In this document: positions 4,148-40,004 of the stretch, in pieces
How positions within the stretch are numbered: position 1 is the first letter of the stretch
How the letters are laid out: each line of letters starts with the position of its first letter
From: Tubulanus polymorphus
Lineage: Eukaryota; Nemertea; Palaeonemertea; Tubulaniformes; Tubulanidae
NCBI RefSeq assembly: GCF_964204645.1
Contig: NC_134033.1
Coordinates: 3,159,631 to 3,223,630 of the forward strand
Direction: 5' to 3'
DNA: 64,000 nucleotides
Translations under genes and position numbers: made by a program
The notes under the pieces: generated by a model
Told to the model about the DNA's origin: nothing
The model's input: the letters and a program-made list of their open reading frames with translations, nothing else
Database searches by the model: none

Positions 4148-4392
4148 CTCGTCGCCGCGCGCAGGTTCAGGCTATCCACTGACTGATCTGAACGCAATCT
4201 GTTTAACTACTGCCCTGCGTGTCCCGCTGCGGTTTCCAGATTTCTGGACGAAATCGATTATAACTATTACCGTCACATGTTTGCGTCCAATGACCGAAAT
4301 GTGGAAAATGGACATTTTTGTGATCAAAAATTTCATATTTTGTACATTCTCGTTTATCTCTTTAGGACATGTGATTTGTTGTGAAAATGAAA

Positions 4393-14028: not shown

Positions 14029-14319
14029 TCAATGAGTGACGATGTTCAACGGTTCAGCTTTGATCGCCGCGAAGTCCAGAGCGCCGTCGATACCGTCGTC
14101 GATCTCGCCGACGACGGCGACGTTGTCGCCGCGTATGATGTACAACCCGAGCACGACCTGCTCCATGCCCTGCGTAGTGCTGAACACGCGTTCGTGTGAC
14201 TCGTCCAGAATCAGGTTGATCGTCTGATCGAATCCCTTCAGCTGCCCGACGATGATTCGTCCGTCCGCCGTGATCACCGAAACCGTTTTGTTGACGTATT
14301 TCTCCAAATCGGACGCCAT
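14029..14319 (-). CDS. LSM8: U6 snRNA-associated Sm-like protein LSm8
   Basis: A 96-aa protein recognised directly. It opens MASDLEKYVNKTVSVITADG and contains GFDQTINLILDESHERVFS (Sm motif 1) and VVLGLYIIRGDNVAVVGEID (Sm motif 2), ending AEPLNIVTH. This length and these motifs are those of LSm8, which makes the nuclear LSm2-8 ring specific for U6 snRNA 3' ends. The frame extends upstream of the chosen Met, but Met-Ala-Ser is where LSm8 starts elsewhere. No intron interrupts the coding region. A polypyrimidine-AG acceptor (minus strand, exon from 14352) suggests an intron in the 5'UTR, which argues against a simple retrocopy. Confidence 0.97.
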   Translation of the reverse strand: MASDLEKYVNKTVSVITADGRIIVGQLKGFDQTINLILDESHERVFSTTQGMEQVVLGLYIIRGDNVAVVGEIDDGIDGALDFAAIKAEPLNIVTH

Positions 14320-14483
14320 TTTCTTTCGATTTTTTTTGCTTTCGACCGGCGACTGAAAAAAAAAAAAACATCGAAATGAAAACGTGAGGATTGTAATAAA
14401 GATAATCACGGTGCACAAGACAGGCCACCGAAGTCGGAACAGAAAAAGTTAAATCGCAACAAAAATATCCCCTGTCCGTTCTA

Positions 14484-16886: not shown

Positions 16887-17642
16887 TGTCATTCGTTTAC
16901 GGCGCCGTAAAAATAGCCTGAGCGATTTAAAAAACGAGAATTGGATTTGATTGATTTTCAAGAATCTGATTTCGACGCGATATTTCCATATTTTTACTCA
17001 CTTCAAAAACTTCCAACTGGTATGATCTATTTCTTCTCACTCTAAACTTTCTTCTGCGGAACTTTCGGCGTCTGAATGCTGTTTACCGGGTTCAAAATGA
17101 TGAATCTAAAACGTTTCGACGCCGGTTTCGATTTTTTGTCGATGGTAAAATGTACGATGTCGGCGGAAGATGTCTCGTTCCTGGGAACAATTCAAATTAT
17201 TTATTGATCAATCCAACATTAAATTAGTTTATTCTTCAACGGAAATTCAATGTAATTATATTGCTAAGCGGGCCGAACCCGATGCTTAGTTTTACGTTGA
17301 TTTTAAAAAGGGTTTTCTATTGTATTCTTAGTGAATTCATCTTTTTCCGCTTTGCAAATCCGTCTCCTACAGATTCGTAATAAAAGCTTGTAAGTAACAA
17401 TTTCCGTGAAAGCGCTCTGAACCAGTACTGGGACTTCCGTGCATTTGTCCATCTATTTCAAAACTCAAATTACTTACAAAACCGACCGCAACGCAGAACT
17501 ACTATGAATGGTAACGCGGTATGATTTTGATATTGTGCCGGATAAATGCGCCATGCGCGATTCCTGGCTAGAACCGGCTAGCTGAGTGGTGACGGTCTCA
17601 GCCCACGCGAGAAGTTGCAGGAGAGATTAATTAACTTGCGAC
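16887..17642. other. Unique intergenic sequence left of the LINE
   Basis: No open frame with recognisable content. The last 60 bases (ctgagtggtgacggtctcag) may be the truncated 5'UTR of the LINE. Confidence 0.4.
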
Positions 17643-20100
17643 TTGGAAAAGCTATCTATTATTTCACCTAATATCGGAAGCCTGAACAAAAATTTTAACT
17701 GTTTTACTGACTTTTTGACTTGCTGTAACGGCCAATTTTCGGTTATTGGTTTGACCGAAACTTGGACAAATTCTAATAATTCTAACTCCAATTTATATAG
17801 AATTAATGGCTACTCGAGTATTTTCAAGTCTCGCGCCAATGGTCAACATGGCGGTGGCGTAGCTTTATTTCTTAAAGAGAATTTCAATTTCAAAGTTCGG
17901 ACTGACTTGTCATCTAAGTATCTAAGCTTCGAATCTTTATTCATCGAAATTGTTTCAGAACATAAATCTAATATTACTATTGGAGTAATATACAGACCTC
18001 CAGGAGGAAGATTACCAGCGTTTCAAGATGAATCCGAAGTCTTAATGGCTGAAATTACTCGCGAGAACAAACTTTGCTATTTAATGGGGGATTTTAATAT
18101 TGATCTCATTGAATATGATATGCAAAAACATACGGATATTTTTCTCGAAACATTTTTCTCCTATTCCTTTTCACCTTTGATTGACAAGCCAACGCGAGTG
18201 ACTTGTGACTCGACGTCTTTAATTGATGATATATTTTTTGTAACGATTTGAGAAACATTCATAAATCTGGGATTTTTATCACCGACCTTTCGGACCATTA
18301 TCCAATATTTACTATTTGCAGTGGTGAAGAGCCTCTGTCTGATAAACAACCTTATAAAACTAGAATCTTTTCGCTGCGAAATATTTCTAAATTTCAAAGA
18401 TTATTAAACAATGTTAGCTGGAGTGAAGTTTATTCTTCTGATAATCCTTGTTCCGCTTACTTAAAAATTTCTTCAGTTTTTCATCAAGTTTTTCCTTTGG
18501 TATCTGTTAATCCAACCGATCCATCATTTCACAAACCTTGGATAAATCCTGGTATTGTCACAGCAATTAAAACAAAAAACAGCCTCTATAGGAAACTTGT
18601 TCGAACTCGTTCGGATGAAATAAAAACCAAGTATAATTCGTACGAAAATCTCATTTCAAAGCTTATTAACAAAGCTGAATCTGATTATTATTCTGAAAAG
18701 TTACTTGCTGCTGGAAATGATATGAAGAAAAAGTGGAATCTGTTGAACACAATTTTAGGGAGAAACATTCATTCAAAACTACCAAACTCTTTTATCTCCG
18801 ATCAACGCATTCTTTCTGGTGATACAAATATTGCCAACGAGTTCAACAATTTTTTTTGTTGTAAATATTGGTGAAAAGCTTGCTAGTCAAATCCCCGATA
18901 TAGGGCAATCTCCCATCAATATATGAATAATCGTGTCAGTGAAAATATCTTTTTTCTCCCAACCTCACCTAATGAAAGAAGTGATGTTTTTCGGGTCTTC
19001 CCTCAAAAAAGAGTGCCGGCGTTGATGTTTTTTTAGTATTTTTATCATTTAACAAGTAATTGATACCGTTAAGTTCCCTCTATCCCACATCTTTGTTCTT
19101 TCAAGTTTGTCCTTTGTTTAAATCAGGAGCCCCTAATTCTTTTGATAATTACCGCCCGATTTCTTTGCTTCCTAGCTTCTCAAAAATTCTGGAAAAATTG
19201 GTTCACAACAGATTAGTTTCATTTTGTAACAAACAGGATATTGTAATCCCCAACCAGTTTGGTTTTCGTCCAAAGCAAATTAACTGCCTTGGCACTATCC
19301 AAGGTCGTTGACAATCTTACTGAAGCCCTAGAAAAGAAAGTTATTACTATAGGATTATTCTTGGACCTTTCGAAGGCATTCGATACTGTTAACCATACAA
19401 TTTTGCTTAAGAAACTCGAGTTTTATGGTATGGGGGGGGGTTGTCATATTTGGTTAAAAAGTTATTTGACTGATAGGAGTCAAGTAGTTAGTTTTAATAA
19501 TACTATATCGTCCCCATTAAAGGTATCAATTGGTGTACCGCAGGGTTCCATTTTAGGCCCTTTACACTTATCTTATACATAAACGATTGCGATAATGCAT
19601 CCAAGTTGCTCCGATTTATTCTTTTTGCAGATGATACCAATTGTTTTTATAGCCATTCAAATATTAATGAATTGGTTTCTACAGTAAAATCAGAACTAGT
19701 AAAACTTGGTATCTGGTTTCAAGTGAACAAACTTTCTTTAAACATTAAGAAATGTCACCTCATGATTTTTGGTAATGAAAATCACTTCAATTTTTCCATT
19801 CGTTTAAATGGTGAATTAATCAAACATGTTCACAGTACAAATTTCTTAGGTCTTTTCATAGATGATTAATTAAATTGGGATGTCCATATCAAAAATTTTT
19901 GTTGTAAGGTTTCACGCTACATTGGAATTCCGAATAGATTTAAAAAACATTTCCCATCACATCTCCTTATAACCCTTTATTATAGTTTTGTTTATCCTCA
20001 TTTACAATATTGTAATTTAATCTGGGGTAGTAACTATGCAAATAAGCTCAATGCACTCTTTTTATTACAAAAAGGCGTGCGTGCGTGCGTGCGATAAGCC
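17643..20100 (+). mobile_element. CR1/L2-like LINE, degraded
   Basis: Order of parts: an endonuclease (EEP fold) from 17643 with SPNIGSLN, LTETWTNS, GGGVALFLKE, GVIYRPPGG and LMGDFNIDL; its end in the next frame (SGIFITDLSDHYPIF, 18263 on); then reverse transcriptase pieces FDNYRPISLLPSFSKILEKL (19138), [20 protein letters not shown] (19361), [10 protein letters not shown] and the catalytic FADDTNCF (19621). A stop at 19867 interrupts FIDD/LNWD, and recognisable sequence continues to about 20090 (YPHLQYCNLIWG). At least four frame changes or stops separate the parts, so the copy is dead. Domain order and the trinucleotide 3' tail fit the CR1/L2 group; clade assignment is tentative. Confidence 0.9.
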
Positions 20101-20948: not shown

Positions 20949-21163
20949 CTGACTACTGTATACGTCCTATATCGAATTATATTTTTAATCTCGTTAATCA
21001 TTACTCGGTTTTGTAAAGTATCGAATTTATTTTTAATGAGCGCCGTGTAGTCTGACTCATCCTCTCTACCGCTCTCTCTCTCTCTTTCTCTCACTCGGAA
21101 ACGCCCAACATTAATTGGATTAAAATCTATTCGCTGTAGTTAGAGTTAAACTGATCGAGGAGA

Positions 21164-21175
21164 ATGTCAACATGA
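21164..21175 (+). promoter_or_regulatory. Three-codon uORF overlapping the start of receptor 1
   Basis: atgtcaacatga: an upstream ATG opens Met-Ser-Thr-stop, and its TGA shares ATGA with the main ATG at 21172. Both ATGs have A at -3. The arrangement is identical in the second gene (32122-32133). Confidence 0.55.
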
Positions 21176-24100
21176 CGCGCAGTCTCTTAACGTTATTACT
21201 CATTCTACTAATGAAACTGTCGTCGGTTCAGACGACTGATCGGATCTCTACCGATCAACCGTCTGTAACTGTCAGTTCACGGTGTAACAATACGTGGTTT
21301 TCACTCGATTCTACGTCCGGTTACATCGTTTCACCGAACTATCCGTTGTTTACGCGCGGTGTTGAATGTCGTTGGTTCGTCAACAGCTCTTTACCGGGTA
21401 CCTTTCGCGTCCAAGTTTACTACGACATCGAGCCGTCTATATTCTGTAGAGATAACTATCTTCACATCAGCGATTCTGATAACTTACTGTGCGGTGCTGG
21501 AAAACAATTAGATATTTACCGCAGTAATTCATTATCGTTGATGTTTAAGAGTGATGTAAATGATGTTGTGAAAGGAAGTCGAGTTTATGTATTTTATCGT
21601 TTGGAGGAAAACCATCTAAAAACTGTTCACCACTGTTCGTCCAACCGACTAAAACAATTGCAAACTTTTGAAATTGGTTATAAATTTGCTATCGCCATGG
21701 GTGGAAAATTATGTCATTTCCTGCAGCTCGAGTGGTCCGGGTTACCAGAGGGTTTCGGCATGAATCTGACTTTTGAGGAAATAAACTTAAGATTAGAACA
21801 GGCGGGTTTAGATTTGACCGTTCAAATTTATGACGGATGGAACACAAGTGAACCTATAACGAATATACAGGAACAAACGGGACATCCGCCCATCTCTATT
21901 TACACTAAAACTAACAGAGCTATCATCACTTTTTCAATGAAACAGGCCGGATTACATTTTGAAACTAATCTATTTGTTAAACTGTATAGAATATCAGATT
22001 GGAATATTTCGAATCCATCGATTCCGATCTGTAAAAACAAATCCGGAGTGCTCATTCCTGGTGATAGGCCGCACGTAATAACTCAGTCTAAACGCTTATA
22101 CTGCTGGTCTATCACAGCTGAAATACTGCAGTACGTCGTCTTCAACTGGTCACGTGTTCTCGTCACTTCCGGTGACGTCATCGGTGTTTATAAACTGGAA
22201 GTTTTAACGGTTGTCGGAACTGATATTTTACTCGGCGAAAACTACCTGGAATCGTTAGGTGTAAAATCTGACGGATTTCTCGTGATATTGTGTTTACTGT
22301 TATCAGAGAATCTTTCCGGAAAATCGTTGAGGAATTCAACGTCGATCGATTACAAAATAGAATCATTGAAGGAAACAGACGTCAAAGTGGAAGATAAAAA
22401 AGTGAGTTAAAACAGCTTGAAAATATCTTTTATATTTATTGTATTGATTTGAAATTGTTTGATAACGATGAAATAATGTGTAGAATTCACATGAATCGTA
22501 ATTTTTTTAATCAAACCTTATCGAAAACAAGTCATTGACCCTTTAACGGCAGAGTTGCAATATTTTCGGTTAAATGGCAAAGAAAAATACGGCATGAACA
22601 TTTATTGATTATCGATGATTTACTCTATGTTTGCATCTATTGTAGGCTAGAAATGGTCATTTAGTGTCGTATGACAGTCTGTTCCCCCGTTATTCGAAAC
22701 GGAAGTTACAATATCGTATCAGTAGATTTGCACTCAGCTCGAAAATCGACATCTATGAGTCTGTATTCGGAACTCAGGAATTAAAACTAACAGTTTTATC
22801 AGAGAACTGTGATCGAGCTGGTTTTTATATATTTGATGGTAGTAATTTCACAACTAGACGCTATGGTCCGTATTGTCCTGGTTCATACTACGGTCGATCT
22901 GTCGTCAGCCTGATTACATCAGGTGGACCGGTTACTGTAGTAGCATACGCTTACAACTGGCATGATCTACTAGTATCTGGTTATCTCAAGTTTGTTCCTA
23001 CTGACTGTGACGGGTATGTTCTACAGGAAGGAGAACGACAAATCACATTGACGTCATATTGTCTCGTGATTACTCCTGAAAATCGACGCCTACCGGTAGA
23101 AAACATTGATGTATTATCAGAACACGAATATCAAATTGACAGATGTTATCGTACAGCTATGAATCCCTGTTCAGCGATAAGTCTCAATAGTCAATTGTTA
23201 AATACCAGTCTCGTAATAAACCATGTGAAATTATTACTCACTAAATATAGATTCTGGAGGACACCACTAATGATTGTATTACGACGTAAATGTCAGAAAT
23301 TAAAACAAAGTCTACATATTCCAGGGATCCGGGGTGGAAGGGATGCTATAGATTGTGGACTCGTGCAGTCACCGAACTTCCCTGGATTATCAACCTCTTT
23401 CTCAACTATATTCTTTAGTTTTTCTTTTCCTACTGACAAAAATATAAATCATTACATCAGATTCCTGTTTAAATTTATTGGACAAACATCATGCTCCGAA
23501 TCTGTTGGTACCCGCACAAGGGGATCAATATTACTAACACAAATTATCAAAATATTTGATGATCCGAACAATTTATTTTCCACGTTTACAGAAACCCGTC
23601 ATACAACAACAATATGTGAAAATAACGCAGTAGCAGGACTTGTATTGTACAGTCTACTCGGGTATGACTTGTATTTTGAGCTGTCAAAGTACATGCCAAT
23701 ATTTCGAATTCAATACACTTTAGAACAATCACCTTTAAAAAAACACCGAATCAATGGCTGCCGATCAGATTTTCTAGATTCAGGTGTTTCGTGTATAAGA
23801 TACATCAAACATGAACGTCTGAATTGGGAGAACGCTGAAATTTACTGTCAACAGAAATATGGAGGACATCTTCTCAGTATCAACTCTGAACAAGAAATGA
23901 TTGCCGTGAAAAAGCTGTTCGCTACAAAACTGCTTCATGAGGCATATTCACAGGTGGCGCTTATTGTGATGATTGGATTGAAATGGCAGGTAAAATACAT
24001 ATCAAATATTAATCATCTAATTGAGCTTTCATATTATGATTTATCTTCATGTCATGTGTATATATAAGGTATTAAAAGCTATTCCAGAAATGATTAGAAC

Positions 24101-27100
24101 ACAGAAAATAATCCAAAACAAGTTTTCACCAATGTAGGTATAACAAGTGTTTGTCTTTAAAGGAGTCCAGTGGTTATTACTCGTGGTCTGATGGTAAACC
24201 GTTCAGTTACACGGAATGGTTCGAACCCGCTGCTGTTAATGAAACGATACCAGAAGTTATTCGAGGATTGATATCTCCGCTAAGAAAACAACCGATAAAT
24301 GACGTCAATATGCCGTGTACGGCGATGATACTGAATAATCCACGAGGATCGGCGAACTGGGTTCGATTCCCGTGTCAAATCGAGGAGACGCACACGACAT
24401 TCATTTGTGAAACAGAAAGAAACGATTTTAATGCATCTTCACAAAACGATACAACTGGAATAAAGCGGAAAAACTTTGAACTATTTAACTCCACGTGTCT
24501 AAGAGGATGGATTCATATAGAAGCGCATTGCTATCAGATACTTACAGACTGGCAAACGCTCCAATCTGAAAGTGTAACAATCCAGACAGCCAGAGAAATG
24601 TGTCTTAAAATCGGTGGAGACATAGGTATAATAACATCTGATATCGAAATTCAGTATTTGATAAATGTTTTCCACTATCAGCATCAATATGGCGCTATAC
24701 TGACTTATCATATAAGCGGAAGAATTGTGGCAATAAAACCAGTTGTAATTAGAGATTGGATAACATATTTTCAAACAGTGAAATGGTCAGTGACTGCCTT
24801 CGATAATGTCACAGATGAAGCGCATTCCGTGCTATGTTCCTACGATGTAACTGGTGAAGAGTTAGCTTCTATAAGCGGTTGTAAATCGTGGCAGTTTGAA
24901 TGTAACGATCAAAGATGTATCAGCGACCATCGCGTATGTGATACCAGACACGACTGTCAACACGGTGAAGATGAACTCAATTGTACGGATATCAATTTAC
25001 ACAGTCAGTTCCGCTGTAACGATGGGCAGGTTATATCGATTAGCGGTTTCTGTGACTTTATACGAGATTGCGTCGATGGCTCGGATGAGAACTCGTGCTA
25101 TCATATTTCATGTTCCTCTGATCAGTTTAAGTGTAACGACGGACAATGTGTGGGTAAATATAAACGATGTGATGGACTTGCTGATTGTCAAGATAAATCC
25201 GATGAGATCGGCTGCTCTTCGGACGAATGTAACGGGTTTTTGTGCGTAAATGGCGAATGTATCAGTTCTCTGTTGTATCGGGATGGTGTTGTAGATTGTG
25301 GCGGGGACCTCGAAGAAGATGAAATAGTAACGACCGATATAACAATCAAACCACAAATTCACTGCACTACAGAGAACTACTGCACAACCAATTTCACTTC
25401 ACTCTGTACCGAATCGGAAAAACAAAGATGTTCATTCGATTCTCCTCATTGTTACGCGAGAAGAGATAGATGTATTTTAGAAAGAATGCCGACAGGTTTT
25501 CCTGTTTGTAGAAGACTCGAACATTTACTGAATTGTAATGAGTTTGAATGTGCAGCTGGTACAGTGAAATGTCCATCGTCTTACTGTATACCGATTAGAC
25601 ACGTGTGCGATGGTCGATCAGATTGTCCTAATTCAGAAGATGAACTCAATTGCGAAACGTTTTCGTGTCCGGGAATGTTTAAATGCGCTGACGAACATCG
25701 ATGTATTCCTCAGTCGGAAGTTTGCGATGGCGTCGTTAATTGTAAACATAACTCGGATGACGAGGCTTACTGCGACGTCACGTGTCCTAACTATTGTAAA
25801 TGTCAAGGTCGTTTCATCGATTGTGAAAATACTTTATTATCGGATATTTCTCGAATTTTTGCCGCTTCGACTCGAGTTTTGATTTTATCGAATAACCGAG
25901 TTAGATTCAATGAATCGACATTTTCCTCTTTTCTGTACCTTTTCTTGCTCAATATTTCCCGTAATGATTTATCTGACATTGTCTCCAACGCGTTTTCTAA
26001 TCTACGCAATCTAAATACATTAGATCTGTCGTATAATCGCCTAGTATCACTAGATACTGATACATTCACCGGTTTAAACAGTTTGAAACAACTTTTACTC
26101 GCTGGAAATCCGCTGAGATATTTGAACGACGGAAGCTTCAACGGTTTGACGTCACTTCCGGTAATGGATCTCCGTGAACTCTCTATATCGATTCTTACTC
26201 GTAACGTATTCCGAGGTTTACCAGCGCTGAAATATTTGAATATCAGCAGTAACGTAATCGAATCAATATCCAGATACGCGTTTACTGGGTTGAGGTCACT
26301 GGGAGTTCTAGATTTCACTAACAATTCTCGGATCATTTCTACGGAAAATAATATCTTCGATAATCTGACGTCTTTATATTTTCTCGCTTCGGACGCGTAT
26401 AAATTCTGTTGTATGGCGCCGAATATTGACCGGTGTCTCCCGGATCCTGATCAATTCTCATCGTGTTCAGACCTCATTGAGAACACTGTCCTCAGAGCTG
26501 TTATCTGGATCATCGCTTGTTTTACTTGCACTTCCAATATTACCGTTATCTTATTTCGTTTTAGGTCGATTCGAGTTTCGTCAGAAACGCAAAATAAATC
26601 GTCGGATATCCTCATCATCAATATCGCGCTTTGTGATTTGCTGATGTCTGTTTATCTGTTTCTGATCGCTGCAACTGATCACGTTTATAAAGGTGTTTAT
26701 TTTCTGAATTCTGAAACTTGGACTCGTAGTTCATTATGCGGTGTTGCCGGTATTGTGGTGACGATATCTTGCGAAGGTTCTTTAACATTTCTCCTTCTCC
26801 TCACGCGTTTCAGATATTCGAATATAATCGACCCATTTTCCGGTAACCCGGTTTTATCCTCAAATATCATTATGATTCTGTCTTGTTTATGCTGGATATT
26901 TCTGAGTTTAATCGCCTTTCTGCCGCTGTCTCGGTCGTCTTATTTCGGTGATAATTTTTACGGTAGTACGGGTATCTGTTTACCTATGAATTTAATATCT
27001 ATAGATGTCAATGGTTGGCAATATTCGTTCGCTATATTCGCTGTATTAAACGCGATCATTCTCACTCTGATAATGATGTCGTACGCGCAGATGTACAAGT

Positions 27101-27393
27101 ATGTATCCGGAAGCAGGTCCGGTTCGGGTAGAGCCGATCCTACAGAACTCGTTCTAGCTCGACGCAGTTTAGTCATCAATTTGTGTAATTTATTTTGCTG
27201 GTTACCGTTAATAATCGTTCAGTTTTGCGCCGTATTTTCGGTCGAGATACCGAACCAGGTTGCCGCTTGGCTGGCCGTTCTTTTCTTGCCGATAAACTCA
27301 ACTCTGAACCCACTTCTTTACACTATTCTAACTATCGATATGAAATCAATACGAGCTCGAAATAAACGCAGAAAACGACAACCAATCAAATGA
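21172..27393 (+). CDS. CUB/C-type lectin/LDLa/LRR seven-helix receptor, copy 1 (GRL101-like)
   Basis: Three phase-0 exons, 21172-22401, 22646-23989 and 24163-27393, encode 1934 aa. Order: signal peptide (1-20); CUB domain (about 38-145, GYIVSPNYPLFTRGVECRW); several CUB-like units to about 760, the clearest at 645 (CGLVQSPNFPGLST); a C-type lectin domain split by intron 2 (781-945); a second, weaker one (968-1085); LDLa repeats from 1098 (SDE/CDG calcium motifs), some degenerate; LRRNT and LRRs (1395-1600); the LGR hinge (YKFCCMAP, FSSCSDL); seven helices (about 1632-1920). FCWLP in TM6 and NPLLY in TM7 are present, but the TM3 DRY site reads TRF. LDLa+LRR+7TM is the type C LGR/relaxin-receptor plan, as in snail GRL101. 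It should sit in the plasma membrane; the ligand is unknown. A poly(A) signal is at 27588. The frame is intact and copy 2 follows in tandem. Confidence 0.9.
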
Positions 27394-27587
27394 TGATAAT
27401 ACTGATAATCTCTATACTGTGAAGACAATAATGATCAATAATTATCATTTATTTCCTCTATAGCACAGCGTTAAGGATAATCACAACACTTTACAAACAT
27501 TAAGATAAGATATTACACATAAACGATATTTGAAAATATGAATACATTTCATCGACCCACATTAAAGACTGCGCCGACCGCGGAGCC

Positions 27588-27593
27588 AATAAA
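27588..27593 (+). promoter_or_regulatory. Poly(A) signal of receptor gene 1
   Basis: AATAAA 195 bp after the stop codon, within the 3' flank where similarity to copy 2 fades. Confidence 0.5.
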
Positions 27594-27599
27594 GAAGTT

Positions 27600-28504
27600 T
27601 CCAGTTTCTAAGCGCCATTTTGTGGCGGTCCCTCGAGATTTCTCGAGGCTTCTGATTATCTCCTAACCCGTGATTGTAAACCATCGTCCATCCGACTTCG
27701 CTCTACCTCTGAGAAAATTTATTCTTTTCCCATTTTGAATCTTTTTTTTACAATTATCAATAATTAGACACTGGTGAGATTATACTGAATTTATTTTAGA
27801 ACTTAGAATTGCTCTGTTAATCTTCCCTTATCTGTAATGATCAATCCTGGTTTCATCAAAGTCATCTTTTCTATCGCTGCTTTCTTTTATAAGCTTCTAA
27901 CTATCGTTTCAAAGCCGTCCTTGATTTAATATCATTACAATTTTAATTTACTTGCTGATTCATTAATTCTGTAAAAATTTTTACCTCAAAATAATTATTC
28001 ATATCACCTCAACATTGTTGAGCACTATCACGGCTAATGATTTAATTCCGACATTCAGTATTCCTGAAGATGTCTATTACGATACGAGGCGAAACGTCAA
28101 CAATAAAACGTTACTAACCTTTTCGGGATCGTTTTGCTGCGCGAGAGCAGATAATTTATTTAATGCTCGATCACCGTTAAAGCTTCTCAAAACGCGCAGA
28201 CGAATAGGGCTGGAAACATGAAAATAGAAAATCAACAAATGTCACCAGCAAGTCGTTGAAGTATCTCCTATTATTCCGATACAGCAGAACCAGCCATGGT
28301 TTCGGCGTTGAACGTTAAACTCTCCTCGCAATGGGTAGAGAATGTGTAACCAAATACTGTATAAATAATAAAACAGTTTCCAGTAGCGATATCGGATCTT
28401 CTTCTATCGGTTTTGTGAAATATTCGACTACAACAAGCCAGAAATTTTGGGGAATCATCATTCAGTTCTGTTTAAGTTGTGAGGTGGAGTTTATACGTCG
28501 GAAA
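27600..28504. other. Spacer between receptor 1 and the lectin gene
   Basis: AT-rich unique DNA. A few short open frames lack recognisable content. Nothing else seen. Confidence 0.5.
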
Positions 28505-29723
28505 ATGAGGAACAAGTCGCTCTCATCCATCGTATTAGTGATCGTTATCGTGATCGCTCGCGGTATCAGTAAGTTCAGAATAATATTATATTACTTTCAA
28601 CACAACACATTCATTATTCACATTTTGCTGGAAGATATTCGACGGTCGCAAAATGATCAATAAACATCTTTTTAAAAAATCGATTTTTCTACTTCAAATT
28701 ATTCTTCCGTAAAATCTTCTAATCGTTTTAAACCAAACACATTTTCAGTGTTTTTCTATCGATGAAATACACGCATATCGGTTCGTGACGATGCAATGAT
28801 CATCGTCGGTACGCTGGGCTAGATATAGGGGTTAATCTCATGGGACCCCTGCCTTCCAGTCGAGTTCGCCTTCTTACCAGGACTGTTGGAGATTGCTAAA
28901 ACTTAACGATTTTACGCTCATCATTTGAAATCGTATCTATTCTGGTGGATTACTTCAAAAATACCTAGCGCCCCGATATCGTAGCCCACGTCGAGGCTGC
29001 TTCCATCCGACGAACGCCAACTCAGACCCCGCTTTCCGATTTTCCTAAAACTAGATCCTGATATTTTCGTACTCGTATATTGTATATTATATATTCGAAG
29101 TCTTGCGGAACGTCGCTTTGAACAAACCGGTATACCAAAGCTCCTTAGGAGGAAATGCTCGAAAAGCTGTCGACGGTAGTACTAACACTAAGTACGGAGC
29201 TGGTAGCTGTACCCACACCGCGGCCAAACCCGGAATGCATTGGTGGATGGTTGATTTACAGGCTGTTTATGAAGTCAAGGCGTTTACGTTGTTCAATAGA
29301 CAAATGGCACGTAATCATCTCGTTTTATGAAGTCTTTTTAGAAAATTTTGGAAATCGATCGAATCGAACGCCATGAGCGCTTAATTTACTTTTACCAAAT
29401 CAGAGGGCGCACCCACGTTCACGAAATCGTGGAGAAAGAGTTGTTAAAAATTATAAATGATTTAGTTCTTAGAAATCATAGCAAAAGGGGGGTTGTTTAT
29501 ACGTGGACTCTCAATGAATTATTCACGTACGTGACGTAATTGAACTCGAGTTTTTCTGATTTTTTGTTCACAGCTCAAAGACTCAGAAACTTTACGATCG
29601 TCGTTTTTGAACGCTAAGAACGTTACGGGTAATTTGGTACAAATTGACCCGTCCTCAATCTGTGCCTTTCAAAGTGAACCAATGGAATCCAGTGAGATGA
29701 AACAATTCGACTGCGCGCATTAA
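28505..29723 (+). pseudogene. F-type lectin (fucolectin) gene, probably frameshifted
   Basis: Three exons with matching phases: 28505-28568 (signal peptide MRNKSLSSIVLVIVIVIARG, phase 1), 29101-29310 (phase 1) and from 29574. Exon 2 carries the F-type lectin start NVALNKPVYQSS, AVDGSTNTKYGAGSCTHT and WWMVDLQAVYEVKAFTLFNR. Exon 3 continues QRLRNFTIVVF and then stops at 29615-29617. One base away the frame stays open to 29723 and contains spaced cysteines (SSICAF, QFDCAH) that resemble the rest of the fold, so a one-base change at the T run 29604-29608 likely broke it. Even then the C-terminal strands are short. The family binds fucose and is often a secreted immune lectin. A 105-aa short product cannot be excluded. 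It lies between the two receptors. Confidence 0.65.
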
Positions 29724-29893
29724 CTGGTCGCTTTATAACGGTCAAAATTAGCTTCATGAACAATAAATGAAATGAAAATCAAACAACGTCCTTTCGACTA
29801 GTTATAAACATAATTATCGTCACAACTACTACGACATATCTGAACTGTTCAGTTGGTTTTATTAAGAAATCGAGTGAATAGAAATTACCTTCC
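29724..29893. other. Short spacer
   Basis: Unique AT-rich DNA between the lectin gene and the TIR element; no feature seen. Confidence 0.4.
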
Positions 29894-30743
29894 CAGGGGC
29901 GGATCCAGGGTGCCTTCCATGCCTTCCGGAAGACAGTCAAAAAATCCCGAGGTCTCGAATTTTTAAGTGCCCTTCGAAATTTCACCGGCAATATTTTTGA
30001 CGGCATTATTTCAGCAACCGCTATTTCAGTGTCCGTAATCCGGGCATAACTATAAAATTAATCGGTATATACCGCTGCCGAGAAAGTGAGGAGAGATAAT
30101 CATATTTGTAAAGCCTTTAATCATGATAAATTAAAAAGGGCACTTTCCTTTTGCAAGGGGCACTCATGCTTTAGATGAGGGCACCTTGTCCTTGCCTTTT
30201 CAGGGAGGGCTAAAGGGGCACTCGTACTTTAGAAGAGGGCACTATACGCGGAAAAATGTTGAAGAAAAGGGCACTTTTTTGCCTAATTTTTAAAATTTTA
30301 GGGGCACTTTTGGTTTGGATGGCACACGACATAAGGATAAATGTGAAGACGGGGCAATTTTTGCCGATTGTTAACAATGAAGGGACACTTAGACATATTC
30401 TGTATAATTGTTAAGGGGCACTTTTAAAGATTATAGGGGCACTAGGCGAAGTTGGCGACAACCATTCTTTCATGGGTTCACCAGCTTCATTTTTTATCCG
30501 CATCTGTTGAAATCTTGTCTCGAATTCGTTTATTCTGGATTGCTCTGCTAGCCTCTAGAAGCCCCCTAAAAGCCTTTAAATGGTACCATATTTTCAAAAT
30601 TTTCTGGGGGTGGGACCCCCCTCTAAGGACTTCGCGCCTTCGGCGCTCGCATTAACCTGGATACTGGGTGTGCACTAAGATCAGAAAGGAGCCCTTAAAT
30701 TTCCTTCCAATACTGTTTACCCATCCCCCTGGATCCGCCCCTG
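29894..30743. mobile_element. 850-bp TIR element, CAGGGGCGGATCCAGG ends
   Basis: Starts caggggcggatccagggtg and ends cctggatccgcccctg, with long matching inverted termini. The interior repeats 'ggggcac(tt)' phrases many times. There is no transposase frame. A second right-like end (cctggatccacccctgc, 30812-30829) suggests nested or partial copies. Same family as 2208-2493. Confidence 0.8.
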
Positions 30744-30829
30744 GGGGTTACCCCGCACTCCCCCTTTGGGTGCCCTCATTTCTTTAGGAAGGCAATCAAA
30801 ATATGCCCCTGGATCCACCCCTGCTTCCT

Positions 30830-31892
30830 AACTTCGTAATGTACAGTATTCTCATCGGGTGAGAAGGGGAAAAAAGTTGATTACAGACATAAGACATATG
30901 AGCACGACATAAACTCATAATATATTGTGTTGTGCGATGATTCTATGGTGAGTTTTATCTATATATTATCCATGTTTTGAAATATCCTTCTAAGTACAGC
31001 ATTGGGTAGTTTACCTTCTTCGACGAGTTCCATATGGATTTTATCGGCTTCAGCATTGGTCGAAAACAAAGATACGTCGGAAATATTTTGCAACCCTACT
31101 ACTGGATCGAGCAAACCTCATAACTGGATAACAGCCTCTAAAGTGTTGCTCGAACTGCATTCAGCAGGACTCAAACTCTTGAGCAGGTATAATTCTCCAA
31201 AGCGCTGATAGCATCAGGCTTTGTTCCAATGAGCTTTTTTTGTGGTTCCTTTTTGAATGTCCAGCTCATCCATCCGTACAGATACTCCGGCATCCGCGAG
31301 TATTCTATGACGAAAGGATTTGTTAGATCTGTGAGTAATCGGACGCTGATTATGTCCTGACAGAAAAGCATTATGTCCTGAATGAAACAGCTTGATCCAC
31401 CGAGCCACGCCGCAAACTACAACAGGGACTAAAACTGTGGATACAGTGGAATTTCTGGATACGGCGAAATACTACCGCTAGCTGTATCGCAAGTTGCTGC
31501 CACTATGCTCTTTTAAGCGGGATTTTCATTCTAAAAATTAATTACATCGATTTAAACAAAAAATTCTGTAATTTTGACCGCCGATCACACGACTTTATCT
31601 ATACTTCGATTTCCGATTTCAAAATCAAAACCCCTGTTTCGCTACCGGCAGGTGTGGTGTGTTTATAAGGGACACCAAATCATAAAAATCAAACGAATAG
31701 CAGAGTCAATCCCTATTTTAAGATAAAAAGATATGAATCGAGTCTGGCAATCAACAAATCGATGGCCAGTCGACTCAAGTTGGTATCTAGAAAATCCGCT
31801 AACGATGAGGAGAACAGCACCTTACAACGAGCTAGAGGTAGTATTCGAAATAGGACGTTTTGAATTTAGAGTTTTGAAATTGTATGTACGTA
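30830..31892. other. Spacer upstream of receptor 2
   Basis: Overlapping short open frames at 31000-31400 on both strands lack a recognisable domain and may be a decayed coding fragment. From about 31850 the sequence begins to resemble the 5' flank of receptor 1 (gacgttttgaa, 20906 versus 31853). Confidence 0.45.
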
Positions 31893-31899
31893 TATAAAA
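31893..31899 (+). promoter_or_regulatory. TATA-like box of receptor gene 2
   Basis: TATAAAA followed by ctgact, 237 bp upstream of the ATG; conserved with 20942 although surrounding bases differ. Confidence 0.5.
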
Positions 31900-32121
31900 C
31901 TGACTCGGCACAAAATATCGAATAACATTTTTACATTTCATTTGAATCTCGTTAATCATTAATTCGGTTTCGTAGATTAACGAATTCAATTTTTAATGAG
32001 CGCCGTGTAGTCTGACTCATCCTCTCTACCGCTCTCTCTCTCTCTCACTCACTCGGAAACGCCCAACATTAATTGGATTAAAATCTATTCGCTGTAGTTA
32101 GAGTTAAACTGATCGAGGAGA

Positions 32122-32133
32122 ATGTCAACATGA
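32122..32133 (+). promoter_or_regulatory. Three-codon uORF overlapping the start of receptor 2
   Basis: Same atgtcaacatga string as at 21164, with the uORF stop overlapping the main ATG at 32130. Confidence 0.55.
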
Positions 32134-35100
32134 CGCGCAGTCTCTTAACGTTATTACTCATTCTACTAATGAAACTGTCGTCGGTTCAGACGACTGATCG
32201 GATCTCTACCGATCAACCGTCTGTAACTGTCAGTTCACGGTGTAACAATACGTGGTTTTCACTCGATTCTACGTCCGGTTACATCGTTTCACCGAATTAT
32301 CCGTCGTTTACGCGCGGCGTTGAATGTCGTTGGTTCGTCAACAGCTCTTTACCGGGCACCTTTCGCGTCCAAGTTTACTACGACATCGAGCCGTCTATAT
32401 TTTGTAGAGATAACTATCTTCACATCAGCGATTCTGATAACTTACTGTGCGGTGCTGGAAAACAATTAGATATTTACCGCAGTAATTCATTAACGTTGAT
32501 GTTTAAGAGTGATGTAAATGATGTTGTGAAAGGAAGTCGAGTTTATGTATTTTATCGTGTGCAGGAAAAGCATCTGAAAACTGTTCACCACTGTTCGTCC
32601 TACCAACTAAAACAATTGCAAACTTTTGAAACTGGTTATAAATTTGCTATCATCGAAATGTATGGAATATTATGTAGTTTCCTGCAGCTGGAGTGGTCCG
32701 GGATACCAGAGGGTTTAGGTATGAATCTGACTTTTGAGAGAATAGATTTTAGATTGTTACAAGCAGGTTTAGATTTGACCGTTCAAATTTATGACGGATG
32801 GAACACAAGTGAACCTATAATGAATATACGGGAACAAACCGGACATCCGCCCATCTCTATTTACACTAAAACTAACAGAGCTATCGTCACTTTTTCAATG
32901 AGACAGGTCCGAGTGACTCTCAAAACTAATCTATTTGTAAAACTGTATAGAATATCAGATTGGAATATTTCGAATCCATCGATTTCGATTTATAAAAACA
33001 AATCTGGAGTGCTCATTCCTGGTGATAGGCCGCACGTAATAACTCGGTCTAAACGCTTATACTGCTGGTCTATCACAGCTGAAATACTGCAGTACGTCGT
33101 CTTCAACTGGTCACGTGATCTCGTCACTTCCGGTGACGTCATCGGTGTTTATAAACTGGAAGGTTTAACGGTTGTCGGAACTGATATTTTACTCGGCGAA
33201 AACTTCCTGGAATCGTTAGGCGTAAAATCTGACGGATTTCTCGTCATATTGTGTTTACTGTTGTCAGAGAATCTTTTCGGAAAATCGTTGAGGAATTCAA
33301 CATCGTTCGAATACAAAATAGAATCATTGAAGGAAACGGACGTCAAAGTGGAAGATAAAAAAGTGAGTTGAAACAGCATGAAAATATCTTTTATATTTAT
33401 TGTATTGATTTGAAATTGTTTGACAACGATGAAATAATGTGTAGAATTCACAGGAATCGTAATTTTTTGACATCAAACCTGATCGAACACAAGTCATTAA
33501 CCCTTTAACGACAGAGTCGCAATATTTTTTGGTTAAATTGGCAAAGGAAAACACGGCATGAACATCAATTGAATACCGATGATTTACTCTATGTTTGCAT
33601 CTATTGCAGGTTGGAAATACTCATTCAGTGGACTATTACAGTCTGTTCCCCCGTTATTCGAAACGGAAGTTACAATATCGTATCAGTAGATTTGCACTCA
33701 GCTCGAAAATCGACATCTATGAGGATACATTAGGAACTCGGCAATTAAAACTAACAGTTTTATCAGAGAATTGTGATCGAGCTGGTTTTTATATATTCGA
33801 TGGTAGTAATTTCACAGCTAGACGCTATGGTCCGTATTGTCCTGGTTCATACTACGGTCGATCTGTCGTCAGCCTGATTACATCAGGTGGACCGGTTACT
33901 GTAGTAGCGTACGCTTACAACTGGTATGATCTACTAGGATCTGGTTATCTCAAGTTTGTTCCTACTGATTGTGATAGTTATGTTCTACAGGAAGGAGAAC
34001 GTCAGATCATTATGACGTCATACTGTCTCGTGATTACACCTGAAAATCGACGCCTACCGATAGAAAACATAGATGTATTATCAGAACACGAATATCAAAT
34101 TGACAGATGTTATCGTACAGCTAGGACTCCCTGTTCAGCGATAAGTCTCAATAGTCACGTGATAAATACCAGTCTCGTATTAAACCATGTGAAATTATTA
34201 CGCGATAAATATAAATTCTGGAGTTCACCATTAATGATTGTATTACGACGTAAATGTCAGAAATTAAAACAAAGTCTACATATTCCAGGATCATTTGGTG
34301 GAATTTCAAGGAACGCTGATCATTGTGGACTCGTGCAGTCACCGAACTTCCCTGGATTATCAACCTCCTCAACTATATTCTTTAGTTTTTCCTTTCCTAC
34401 TGACGAAAAAATAAATCATTACATCAGATTCCTGTTGAAATTTATCGGACAAACATCATGCTCCAAATTTGTTGGTACCCGCACAAGGGGATCAATATTA
34501 CTAACACAAATTATCAAATTATTTGACGATCCGAAAAATTTATTTTCCACCTTCACAGAAACCCGTCATACAATAACAATATGTGAAAATAACGCAGTAG
34601 CAGGACTTGTATTGTACAGTCTACTCGGGTATGACCTGTATTTTGAGTTATCCATGTACATGCCAATATTTCGAATCCAATACACTTTAGAACAATCGCC
34701 TTTAAAGAAACACCGAATCAATGGCTGCCGATCAGATTTTCTAGATTCAGGTGTTTCGTGTATCAGATACGTCAAACATGAACGTCCGAATTGGGAGAAT
34801 GCTGAAATTTACTGTCAACAGAAATATGGAGGACATCTTCTCAGTATCAACTCTCAACGTGATATGATGGCCGTTAAAAAGCTGTTCGCTACAAAACTGC
34901 TTCATGAGGCATATTCACAGGCGGCGCTTATTGTGATGATAGGATTGAAATGGCAGGTAAAATACATATCAAATATAATTCATCTAATTGAGCTTTGATG
35001 ATTATCATATATGTTCTTGTCATGTGAAAAGATAAGAAGTTGTTCAAAAAATGATTAGACCATAAAAAATAATCCAAAAAGAGTTTTCTGCAATAACAAG

Positions 35101-38100
35101 TGTTTATTTAATTAAAGGAGTCCAAAGGTTATTACTCGTGGTCTGATGGGAAACCGTTGAGTTACGCAGAATGGTTTGAACCTGCTGCTGTTAATGAAAC
35201 GATACCAGAAGTTATTCGAGGATTGATATCTCCGCTAAGAAAACATCCGATAAATGACGTCAATATGCCGTGTACGGCGATGATACTGAATAATCCACGA
35301 GGATCGGCGAACTGGGTTCGATTCCCGTGTCAAATCGAGGAGACGCACACGACATTCATTTGTGAAACAGAAAGAAACGATTTGAATACATCTTCACAAA
35401 ACGATACAACTGAAATAACTCGAAACAACTTTGAACGATTTAACTCCACGTGTCTAAGAGGGTGGATTCGTATAGAAGCGTATTGCTATCAAATACTTAC
35501 AGCCTGGCAAACGCTCCACACTGAAAGTTTAACAATCCAAACAGCCAGAGAAATGTGTCTTACAATCGGTGGAGACATAGGTATAATAACATCTGATATT
35601 GAAATTCAGCATTTGATAAATGTTTTCCACTATCAGCTTCAATATGGCGCTATACTGACTAATCATACAAGCGGAAGAATTGTGGCAATAAAACCAGTTG
35701 TAATTAGAGATTGGATAACATATTTTCAAACAGTGAAATGGTCAGTGACTGCCGTCGATAATGTCACAGATGAAGCGCATTCCGTGCTATGTTCCTATGA
35801 TGTAACTGGTGAAGAGTTAGCTTCTCTAAGCGGTTGTAAATCGTGGCAGTTTGAATGTAACGATCAAAGATGTATCAGCGACCATCGCGTATGCGATACA
35901 AGAAACGACTGTCAACACGGTGAAGATGAACTCGATTGTACGGATATCAATTTAAACAGTCAGTTCCGCTGTAACGATGGACAGGTTATATCGATTAGCG
36001 GTTTCTGTGACTTTATGAGAGATTGCGTCGATGGCTCGGATGAGAACTCGTGCTATCATATTTCATGTTCCTCTGATCAATTTAAGTGTAACGACGGACA
36101 ATGTGTGGGTAAATATAAACGATGTGATGGACTGGTCGATTGTCGAGATAAATCCGATGAGATCGGCTGCTCTTCGGACGAATGTAACGGGTTTTTGTGC
36201 GTAAATGGCGAATGTATCAGTTCTCTGTTGTATCGGGATGGTGTTGTAGATTGTGGCGGGGACCTCGAAGAAGATGAAATAGTAACGACCGATATAACAA
36301 TCAAACCACGAATTCACTGCATAACAGAGAACTACTGCACGACCAATTTCACTTCACTCTGTACCGAATCGGATAAACAAAGATGTTCATTCGATTCTCC
36401 TCATTGTTACGCGAGAAGAGATAGATGTATTTTAGAAAGAATGTCGACAGGTTTTCCTGTTTGTAGAAGACTCGAACATTTACTGAATTGTAATGAGTTT
36501 GAATGTGCAGCTGATACAGTGAAATGTCCATCGTCTTACTGTATACCGATTAGACACGTGTGCGATGGTCGATCAGATTGTCCCAATTCAGAAGATGAAT
36601 TCAATTGCGAAACGTTTTCGTGTCCGGGAATGTTTAAATGCGCTGACGAACATCGATGTATTCCTCAGTCGGAAGTTTGCGATGGCGTCGTTAATTGTAA
36701 ACATAACTCGGATGACGAGGCTTACTGCGACGTCACGTGTCCTAACTATTGTAATTGTCAAGGTCGTTTCATCGATTGTGAAAATACTTTTTTATCGGAT
36801 ATTTCTCGAATTTTTGCCGCGTCGACTCGAGTTTTGATTTTATCGAATAACCGAGTTAGATTCAATGAATCGACATTTTCCTCTTTTCTGTACCTTTTCT
36901 TACTCAATATTTCCCGTAATGATTTATCTGACATTGTCTCCAACGCGTTTTCTAATCTACGCAATCTAAATACATTAGATCTGTCGTATAATCGCCTAGT
37001 ATCACTACACGCTGATACATTCATTGGTTTAAACAGTTTGAAACAACTTTTACTCGCCGGAAATCCGCTGAGATATTTGAACGATGGAAGCTTCAATGGT
37101 TTGACGTCACTTCCGGTTATGGATCTCCAAGGTCTCTCTATATCGTTTCTTACTCGTAACGTATTCCGAGGTTTACCAGCGCTGAAATATTTGAATATCA
37201 GCAGTAACGTAATCGAATCAATATCCAGATACGCGTTTACTGGGCTGAGTTCACTGGGAGTTCTAGATTTCACCAACAATTCTCGGGTAATTTCTACGGA
37301 AAATTATATCTTCGATAATCTGACGTCTTTATATTTTCTCGCTTCGGACGCGTATAAATTCTGTTGTATGGCGCCGAATATTGACCGGTGTCTCCCGGAT
37401 CCTGATCAATTCTCATCGTGTTCAGACCTCATTGAGAACACTGTCCTCACAGCTGTTATCTGGATCATCGCTTGTTTTACATTCGTTTCCAATATTACCG
37501 TTATCTTATTTCGTTTTAGGTCGATTCGAGTCTCGTCAGAAACACAAAATAAATCGTCGGATATCCTCATCATTAATATCGCGCTTTGTGATTTCCTGAT
37601 GTCTGTTTATCTGTTTCTGATCGCTGCAACTGATCACGTTTATAAAGGTGTTTATTTTCTGAATTCTGAAACCTGGACTCGTAGTTCATTATGCAGTGTT
37701 GCCGGTATTGTGGTGACGATATCTTGCGAAGGCTCTTTAACATTTCTCCTTCTCCTCACGCGTTTCAGATATTCCAATATAATCGACCCATTTTCCGGTA
37801 ATCCGGTTTTATCCTCAAATATCATTTCGATTCTATCTTGTTTATGCTGGATATTTCTGAGTTTAATCGCCTTTCTGCCGCTGTCTCGGTCGTCGTATTT
37901 CGGTGATAATTTTTACGGTAGTACGGGTATCTGTTTACCTATGAATTTAATATCTATAGATGTCAATGGTTGGCAATATTCGTTCGCTATATTCGCTGTA
38001 TTAAACGCGATCATTCTCACTCTGATAATGATGTCGTACGCGCAGATGTACAAGTATGTATCCGGAAGCAGGTCCGGTTCGGGTAGAGCTGATCCTACAG

Positions 38101-38348
38101 AACTCGTTCTAGCTCGACGCAGTTTAGTCATCAATTTGTGTAATTTATTTTGCTGGCTACCGTTGATAATCGTTCAGTTTTGCGCCGTATTTTCGGTCGA
38201 GATACCGAACCAGGTGGCCGCTTGGCTGGCCGTTCTTTTCTTGCCGATAAACTCAACTCTGAACCCGCTTCTTTACACTATTCTAACTATCGATATGAAA
38301 TCCATACGAGCTCGAAATAAACGCAGAAAACGACAACCAATCAAATGA
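32130..38348 (+). CDS. CUB/C-type lectin/LDLa/LRR seven-helix receptor, copy 2 (GRL101-like)
   Basis: Exons 32130-33362, 33610-34956 and 35118-38348, all phase 0, give 1936 aa, two more than copy 1 (one codon more in each of exons 1 and 2). Domain order, intron positions and most residues match copy 1. By eye exon 3 is the most similar, with the LRR and seven-helix part nearly unchanged. Differences cluster in the second CUB-like unit (about 165-215), around 595-650 (including the start of the next CUB), and between the two lectin domains. DRY is again TRF; FCWLP and NPLLY are kept. The LDLa calcium motifs are intact. Similarity extends some 250 bp upstream and about 150 bp past the stop, marking the duplicated block. 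Both copies look functional. The 3'UTR has a 34-bp palindrome that copy 1 lacks. Confidence 0.9.
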
Positions 38349-39069: not shown

Positions 39070-39640
39070 CCTGGTGGGCTCGTAACGGTTCGAATCCTGT
39101 TTTTTTCTCAGCGTCCTAGAGAAATGGGTTTGAATCCTGCATTTTCCTCGGTGAACAAGAAAAATAAGGGAATGCACGGGTTCGAATCCTACATTTTCCT
39201 CGGTGTCCAAGAGAGTTGGGCATGCAATGGTACGAATTCTACATTATCTTTAACGTCCAGGAGAAGCGGCCTTTTGCGAGGGTTAGAATCTTATCCTCAG
39301 CGTACAAGAGAAGTGGGAATGCACGGGTTCGAAATCCTACATTTTCCCCAAGTGTCCAAGAGGTCCAAGGGTTCGAATCCTACATTATCTTCAGCGTTCA
39401 AGAGAAGTGGGCTTGCGAGGGTTCCAATCCAACATCATCATCAGCGTCCAAGAGAATTGGGTTGGCAAAGGTTCGAATCCAACATCATCCTTGGCGATAG
39501 AGAGAAGTGGGCTTGCAAGGGTTCGAATCCTGTTCTCCCCAGCCTCACAAGAGAGGCAGGCTTGCAAGGGTTTGAAGTCTAAATCATCCTAGGCGTCCAA
39601 GAGAGTTGGGCTTGCGAGGGTTCGAATCCTAAGTGTTCCT
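39070..39640 (+). repeat. Minisatellite, about 12 units of 49 bp, each with a B-box-like motif
   Basis: Units centre on gggttcgaatcctacatt, followed by (t/c)ctcggcgtccaagagaagtg and gggcttgcga. Twelve copies start at about 39076, 39128, 39179, 39228, 39280, 39327, 39368, 39418, 39470, 39519, 39568 and 39617. GGTTCGAATCC matches the Pol III B box (T-arm) consensus. No A box is evident in the unit. The 184-codon frame across it is accidental. Confidence 0.85.
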
Positions 39641-40004
39641 TGACGTCCAGAAAGGCTGCAACATACATAGTCCTTATCAGGAATACAATAAAACAGACGA
39701 ATCGAAATCAATATTATTTATTTCATTCCGAACCGCCACCTAGCGACACGATTTAACATCGAATATCAGAATGTAGCTCCTTTCGAGTCTTTAATGCTGA
39801 AGTGATGATGCAGTCATCTGTGATATGTCTCGTTTGCTGGAGCTGAAGATGTATAAAATAACCAAAAAGTTATCATCAGATATGATCACAGAATGGTCAA
39901 TAACCAAACTCCCAAAGTGGTCTTAAAACTATTTTAACTGGTTTAAGTCCAAAGTTTCACTGTAATACATCCGTCTTAAGTGTAGAGCAGTTCTAGTCAG
40001 ATCT

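Follow-up and report, generated by a model that had tools for sequence, protein, structure and literature searches.

Two adjacent receptor genes with CUB, lectin, LDLa and LRR modules ahead of a seven-helix core, predicted members of a family of roughly 200 copies in one genome

Genes A and B lie side by side in the window, as we call the whole 64-kb stretch of DNA analyzed, and similarity to the rest of the assembly predicts that they belong to a family of related gene copies numbering roughly 200 in one genome. One CUB domain, one C-type lectin domain, LDLa repeats, an LRR array and a 7TM core are firmly predicted in both genes, and a second lectin domain (CTLD2) is probably present. Constraint is graded, strongest in the 7TM and weakest in the CUB/lectin block. 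Moreover, ectodomain cassettes appear to differ between some sister genes, and there are signs of mosaic evolution.

The first-pass annotation described an adjacent, intact pair of 1934 and 1936 amino acids (aa), with three exons each and an uninterrupted last exon, and recomputing the coordinates and exon structure gave the same picture:

20983..21171, plus strand: leader of gene A, about 190 bp, conserved with gene B
21172-27393, plus strand: gene A, 1934 aa, three exons
21172..22401, plus strand: gene A exon 1, with signal peptide (by eye), CUB1, module 2 and module 3
about 21283-21606, plus strand: gene A CUB1 (about aa 38-145), within exon 1
about 21607-22035, plus strand: gene A CUB-like module 2, within exon 1
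about 22021-22401, plus strand: gene A module 3, within exon 1
22646..23989, plus strand: gene A exon 2, with ex2a, ex2b and the first half of CTLD1 (from about 23759)
24163..27393, plus strand: gene A exon 3, with the stop
to about 24462, plus strand: gene A second half of CTLD1, within exon 3
about 24478-24876, plus strand: gene A divergent CTLD2, within exon 3
about 24880-25773, plus strand: gene A LDLa repeats, within exon 3
about 25774-26463, plus strand: gene A LRR, within exon 3
26536-27321, plus strand: gene A 7TM, within exon 3
31941..32129, plus strand: leader of gene B, counterpart of 20983-21171
32130-38348, plus strand: gene B, 1936 aa, three exons
32130..33362, plus strand: gene B exon 1, content as in A
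33610..34956, plus strand: gene B exon 2, content as in A
35118..38348, plus strand: gene B exon 3, content as in A

All four introns of A and B are GT-AG introns of 161-247 bp that fall between codons (exon lengths are divisible by three), and the last exon of both genes runs uninterrupted for 3231 bp.

The remainder of the window holds other features. Upstream of gene A, non-LTR retrotransposon-like remnants occupy 17631-19866 on the plus strand, with an endonuclease-type domain (8.8e-9) and reverse transcriptase (2.8e-11 and 2.8e-5). Between A and B, an F5/8 type C (galactose-binding-like) stretch lies at 29103-29309 on the plus strand (F5_F8_type_C_2, 8.3e-10; F5_F8_type_C, 6.4e-8), and a possible signal-peptide exon was seen by eye ahead of it, near 28505. 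The minus strand carries an open frame with a LicD-family domain (3182-4171, 6.2e-18) and an LSM-domain open frame (14032-14448, 2.2e-20). Comparison of the window with itself revealed repeat arrays at 61889-62603 and 39084-39650, and Rfam found no match across the 64 kb at gathering thresholds.

The modules of the N-terminal block differ in how well they are matched. Neither CUB nor Lectin_C was matched by Pfam in full-length A at an E value of up to 10. When exon 1 of A was scanned alone, CUB was matched at 6e-10, and the same exon-1 CUB was found in 17/17 family members including A and B (E<=1). Moreover, a profile of exon 1 retrieved cubilin (2.1e-11) and complement proteases from the PDB through the CUB1 stretch. 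Module 2 matched CUB only at 0.0082 in A and in 5/16 members at E<=1, and its profile retrieved just four PDB sequences at E<=10, all of them C1s CUB chains (best E, 0.91). Pfam at E<=10 matched nothing in module 3, ex2a or ex2b of A (aa 284-410, 420-575 and 572-782). Profiles of ex2a and ex2b (aa 420-575 and 625-782) gave no CUB and no meaningful match in the PDB, with which module 3 was compared only as part of the whole exon-1 profile. Finally, profile-profile comparison between the modules linked only a short stretch of CUB1 and ex2b (40% probability, 13 columns). The several CUB-like modules of the first-pass annotation therefore reduce to one firm and one weak CUB, and three further modules have no Pfam match in A.

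The lectin domains likewise differ in how clearly they are matched. Lectin_C was matched in CTLD1 at 0.0027 with exon 2 of A alone and at 1.7e-8 with exons 2 and 3 joined (1.4e-5 for the joined exons of locus L055), and thus the lectin domain is likely completed by splicing out intron 2. The part encoded by exon 2 was matched in 17/17 members (E<=1), and Pfam places the domain N-terminal to the LDLa repeats in A and L055, as in the SudRes2-type receptors described below. CTLD2 had no Lectin_C match among 16 members at E<=10. It weakly matched UL45, a viral C-type-lectin-like family, in 4/16 members (best, 0.029), and all 10 distinct PDB sequences retrieved by its profile at E<=10 were C-type-lectin-like, with a best value of 3.4e-7 that was summed from weak pieces. 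Of the two C-type lectin domains originally claimed, one thus is firm, and the second is weak. EPN/QPD and WND are the sugar-binding motifs of C-type lectins. By eye, CTLD1 has no such canonical motif, and glycan binding therefore should not be assumed.

The C-terminal half is matched more strongly. In full-length A, Pfam found LDLa (1.1e-35) in six stretches, or five when exon 3 was scanned alone, LRR_8 (5.3e-23), and 7tm_1 across the whole profile (2.5e-19), in line with the LDLa repeats, LRR array and rhodopsin-type seven-helix core of the first-pass annotation. All three domains were present in 16/16 exon-3 members (E<=0.1; L063 left out), and LDLa-LRR-7TM was contiguous in all 30 loci, among them A and B, that were taken from the first list of 7TM matches. 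The predicted proteins thus resemble type C LGRs in having LDLa and LRR ahead of a rhodopsin-type 7TM, and they resemble type C2 (GRL101) in having several LDLa repeats rather than one. The Pfam domain order agrees with the earlier description of a type C LGR-like core with an added CUB/lectin block.

When the 7TM of A was compared with the PDB by phmmer, relaxin receptor 1 (RXFP1) was best at 155.7 bits, followed by LHCGR (71), FSHR (62.5), 8w1z_A (61.4), TSHR (53.3) and LGR4 (35.6). By this ranking of scores, without a tree, the 7TM appears nearer to relaxin receptors than to type A/B LGRs. In a search with the exon-3 profile, relaxin receptor 1 was again the top GPCR, through LRR and 7TM, and LRP2 chains scored above it through LDLa. 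In standard numbering, class A GPCRs have the hallmarks D2.50, D/E-R-Y, CWxP and NPxxY. D2.50, CWxP and NPxxY were kept in 17/17 members, as was the loop motif VSGSRSGSGRxDPTEL. R3.50 was also kept, and the acidic residue at 3.49 was replaced by F, H or Q in 17/17, as placed by alignment with RXFP1 (the site was located by pattern search in 15/17 and read from the sequence in A and L059, where the pattern matched elsewhere).

How large the family is was estimated from the assembly (267.8 Mb, 77 contigs) with four 7TM queries, each represented by its best 129-131 of 486-565 candidates. The union of the matches listed, from hand-transcribed lists, comprises 207 7TM loci, having grown from 191 to 203 to 207 as the last two queries added 12 and 4. 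As only the best matches were listed, the figure is a lower bound; as broken copies and possible assembly duplicates are counted, it is also an upper one. The listed loci form arrays on contigs C9 (73), C6 (58) and C12 (40) and are scattered over C8 (14), C10 (11), C22 (4), C4 (3), C11 (2), C32 (1) and C3 (1). All 129 matches listed for the first query are at least 71% identical to A, and 115/129 have a frame of at least 900 codons. The other 14, counted by hand, fall below 900 codons, and further loci have internal stops. We note that receptor matches with equal scores recur about 232 kb apart on C6 (19.82-19.87 and 20.05-20.10 Mb) and, as two matches, on C8 (near 2.36 and 3.17 Mb), and these copies may reflect segmental duplication or an assembly artifact.

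Whether exons 1 and 2 belong with exon 3 bears on the whole architecture. Among the first exons listed for an exon-1 query (the best 102 of 372 candidates), 90 are followed at a distance of 3.8-5.1 kb, judged by position and with 7TM direction unchecked, by a 7TM from the 203-locus union, and 12 are not. That 90 of the 203 7TM loci have a listed exon 1 says little, since both lists hold best matches only. Spliced alignment to A placed both introns at homologous sites in 15/15 further genes. The aligner allowed only phase-0 GT-AG introns, and the conserved phase therefore is partly built in. In most of the 15 genes, though not in all, the unspliced matches are interrupted close to these intron sites. 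Thirteen of these genes were picked among loci with exon 1-2 matches, and thus L055 and L060, picked on the 7TM alone, are the fairer intron test; the L060 model has a spurious tiny fourth (last) exon. L063, probably a broken gene, could be modeled only with a false intron of 55 bp in exon 3; it was kept in the 17-member alignment and left out of alignments A4-A8. Separate transcripts for exons 1-2 and exon 3 are unlikely, as the lectin domain spans intron 2, the introns recur in 15/15 genes, and 90/102 first exons have a 7TM downstream.

In agreement with the earlier view, both frames are intact, and they are under constraint, with a dN/dS between A and B of 0.42 overall. Computed per domain between the copies, dN/dS is 0.15 in the 7TM, 0.66 in CTLD2 and 0.75 in module 2. 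For CTLD2, dN/dS exceeds 1 in the pairs A-L056 (1.01), A-L049 (1.49) and B-L061 (1.13), on 3-7 synonymous changes each. Within the close clade, pN/pS rises from 0.18 in the 7TM through 0.27 (LDLa) and 0.35 (LRR) to 0.38-0.59 in the N-terminal domains, the N-terminal part being represented by 7 sequences and the rest by 17 or more. In this set, L013 and L030 are, judging from position, pieces of one gene, as are L014 and L033, with overlaps near aa 1128-1296; L021, L024 and L025, which duplicate L061, L062 and B, were excluded. No whole domain in the close clade has a pN/pS above 1, and thus diversifying selection is without support. Two 40-codon windows (aa 321-360 and 481-520) do exceed 1, on few synonymous changes. 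Weaker N-terminal constraint could be mere relaxation.

Between A and B, the exons are 93.5-96.8% identical and the introns 92.6 and 86.1% (piecewise alignment), and the leaders are 95.4% identical over 194 aligned bases (200-bp stretch compared). On the downstream side, alignment is already poor over the first 200 bp (78.1% over 151 bases, with 98 gapped columns), and the pieces beyond the leader and beyond those 200 bp hardly align at all. No shared A-B 3' flank of 400 bp was found. Instead, the 3' flank of A, near 3.18 Mb of C9, is 94-97% identical to those of four genes lying over 1 Mb away on the same contig (L026, L030, L032 and L033, at 4.23-4.74 Mb), and that of B is 79% identical to the flank of L031. 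Because the 3' flanks are unalignable past about 200 bp and the flank of A matches distant genes, the two do not look like simple recent tandem duplicates.

Coding and flank divergence were also compared among 17 close relatives (L013, L014 and L017 dropped). Mean dS is 0.074 in LDLa-LRR and 0.086 in the 7TM for the 38 pairs whose 3' flanks align over at least 400 bp, versus 0.071 and 0.089 for the 98 pairs whose flanks do not. Thus, coding divergence seems largely uncoupled from the history of the flanks, a sign of what would be expected under ectopic gene conversion. Within the 38 pairs, dS in LDLa-LRR is uncorrelated with flank divergence (Spearman, -0.01), and dS in the 7TM is correlated with it (Spearman, 0.39; P = 0.015; the pairs are not independent).

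Cassette contrasts point the same way. The sisters L055 and L058 share 75/130 third positions in CTLD2 (0.58) versus 1616/1790 elsewhere (0.90), a pattern repeated between L065 and L058. L058 carries an A-type CTLD2 and has 227/240 third positions in common with A over aa 905-1148 (0.95). The sisters L050 and L057 share 88/198 in ex2b (0.44) and 58/119 in CTLD2 (0.49) versus about 0.8 elsewhere. The segments were chosen after the profiles had been seen, and the Fisher P values for these cassettes are therefore descriptive only. Under a preset criterion applied to 17 genes and 10 domains, a single foreign cassette was flagged, the CTLD2 of L058, and comparisons of the neighbors L064-L057 and L065-L055 gave no cassette difference. 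Finally, in a run-length test for conversion, 0/1000 permutations reached the observed run in 31/136 pairs. Many of the runs lie in a single stretch (aa 1085-1145), where plain conservation might account for them, which weakens the test, and the case for conversion therefore relies on the flank test and the cassette contrasts.

What the family does we can only propose. The graded constraint, together with an intracellular loop that hardly varies, suggests that many ectodomains feed one output, as would suit receptors for a wide range of partners, and we give about even chances to a diversified recognition repertoire, of about 200 LRR GPCR copies, with one conserved output. The N-terminal CUB, lectin and remaining modules would bind macromolecules (surface molecules that are microbial, parasite-derived, foreign or self), contact would be relayed through the LDLa-LRR stalk and the hinge to the conserved 7TM in the manner of relaxin receptor 1, and the members would feed a common G-protein output via their near-identical third intracellular loop. 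The ligand class, tissue, G protein and role in recognition or defense are what we infer. More tentatively, the repertoire may be one of innate GPCRs in which the signaling core is locked and gene conversion moves the lectin and neighboring cassettes, generating new binding specificities. Its logic would resemble that of other immune families that have expanded in invertebrates, with a GPCR as the scaffold. If true, GPCRs as a diversified system of pathogen or self recognition in invertebrates become testable. Moreover, sister genes that differ naturally by single ectodomain modules while the signaling core stays constant would be suited to mapping ligand binding.

Large tandem GPCR families can be chemosensory, and about 200 clustered GPCR loci are among the matches listed. 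Perhaps, then, the proteins serve sensory cells as contact receptors, with macromolecules or peptides as the cues and one or few genes expressed per cell, and we consider this unlikely. Classical odorant receptors vary in the helical pocket, whereas the 7TM is the least variable part here, although contact chemoreception via the ectodomain would still be compatible. A GRL101-like gene is overexpressed in sensory tentacles relative to tube feet in starfish (PMC6267866). GRL101 has also been proposed as a second insulin-like growth factor (IGF) receptor (PMC8286064), and the 7TM here is closest to relaxin receptor 1, at 155.7 bits versus 71 for the lutropin receptor. An expanded set of GRL101-type endocrine receptors for insulin/IGF-like peptides, with the CUB/lectin block as a passive stalk, is nevertheless very improbable in our judgment, as about 200 copies with mosaic ectodomains contrast with the ambulacrarians, in which each such receptor has one orthologue per species (PMC8286064).

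Alternatively, the amplification might be mostly nonadaptive, with duplication and gene conversion inflating a family of which few copies matter. The coding divergence does look homogenized, and there are broken copies, such as the 14/129 listed loci below 900 codons, those with internal stops, and L063. The frames of at least 900 codons in 115/129 listed loci and the pN/pS below 1 in every domain speak against it, and we find this account improbable. A diversified recognition repertoire remains the reading we prefer, and it has a described relative.

In Biomphalaria sudanica, the SudRes2 region, associated with schistosome resistance, holds clustered GRL101-like paralogues with 7TM, LRR, LDL class A and an N-terminal C-type lectin, and the authors suggest pathogen recognition (PMC12297450, 2025). 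To those authors' knowledge, such receptors had not previously been tied to gastropod immunity (PMC12297450). The cluster has ten lectin GRL101-like genes and two incomplete ones, with six elsewhere, and the validated and top outlier variants sit in a neighboring non-GRL101 gene (PMC12297450); the receptors thus are tied to resistance only by position. Compared by description only, the likeness lies in lectin, LDLa, LRR and a rhodopsin-type 7TM in clustered genes, and this lectin-bearing GRL101 cluster is probably the nearest described system. The family here differs in its 207 listed 7TM loci, in an N-terminal block of about 780 aa that includes CUB and, probably, in a second lectin domain.

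RXFP1, a type C1 LGR that we take to be LGR7, is the best solved match to the 7TM of A, and it reads E-K at positions 3.49-3.50, whereas the family reads F/H/Q-R. LGR7 and LGR8 have a single LDL-A module (PMC2396169). Lymnaea GRL101, a type C2 LGR, combines several LDLa and LRR with a rhodopsin-type 7TM (PMC8286064, PMC11863921), namely, twelve LDLa and six LRR, with no CUB/lectin block mentioned in the parts available (PMC8286064). A lineage-specific expansion in Ciona, LDLRR-GPCR, has 14 members with a relaxin-receptor-like 7TM and LDL-A repeats and, unlike the family here, is described without LRR (PMC2396169). In amphioxus, CUB, lectin or LDLa modules are found on adhesion GPCRs (PMC2246102). 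For choanoflagellates, LRR and LDLa are tabulated for rhodopsin-type GPCRs, and CUB is among the domains of adhesion GPCRs (PMC12716839). The available SudRes2 text does not mention CUB (PMC12297450). In the literature searched, outside of which most subscription papers lie, we found no CUB domain on a GRL101 receptor and, in titles and the starts of abstracts, no description of a GPCR with CUB, lectin and LRR. What is apparently new here, then, is the CUB-bearing N-terminus, the size of the family, and the signs of mosaic evolution.
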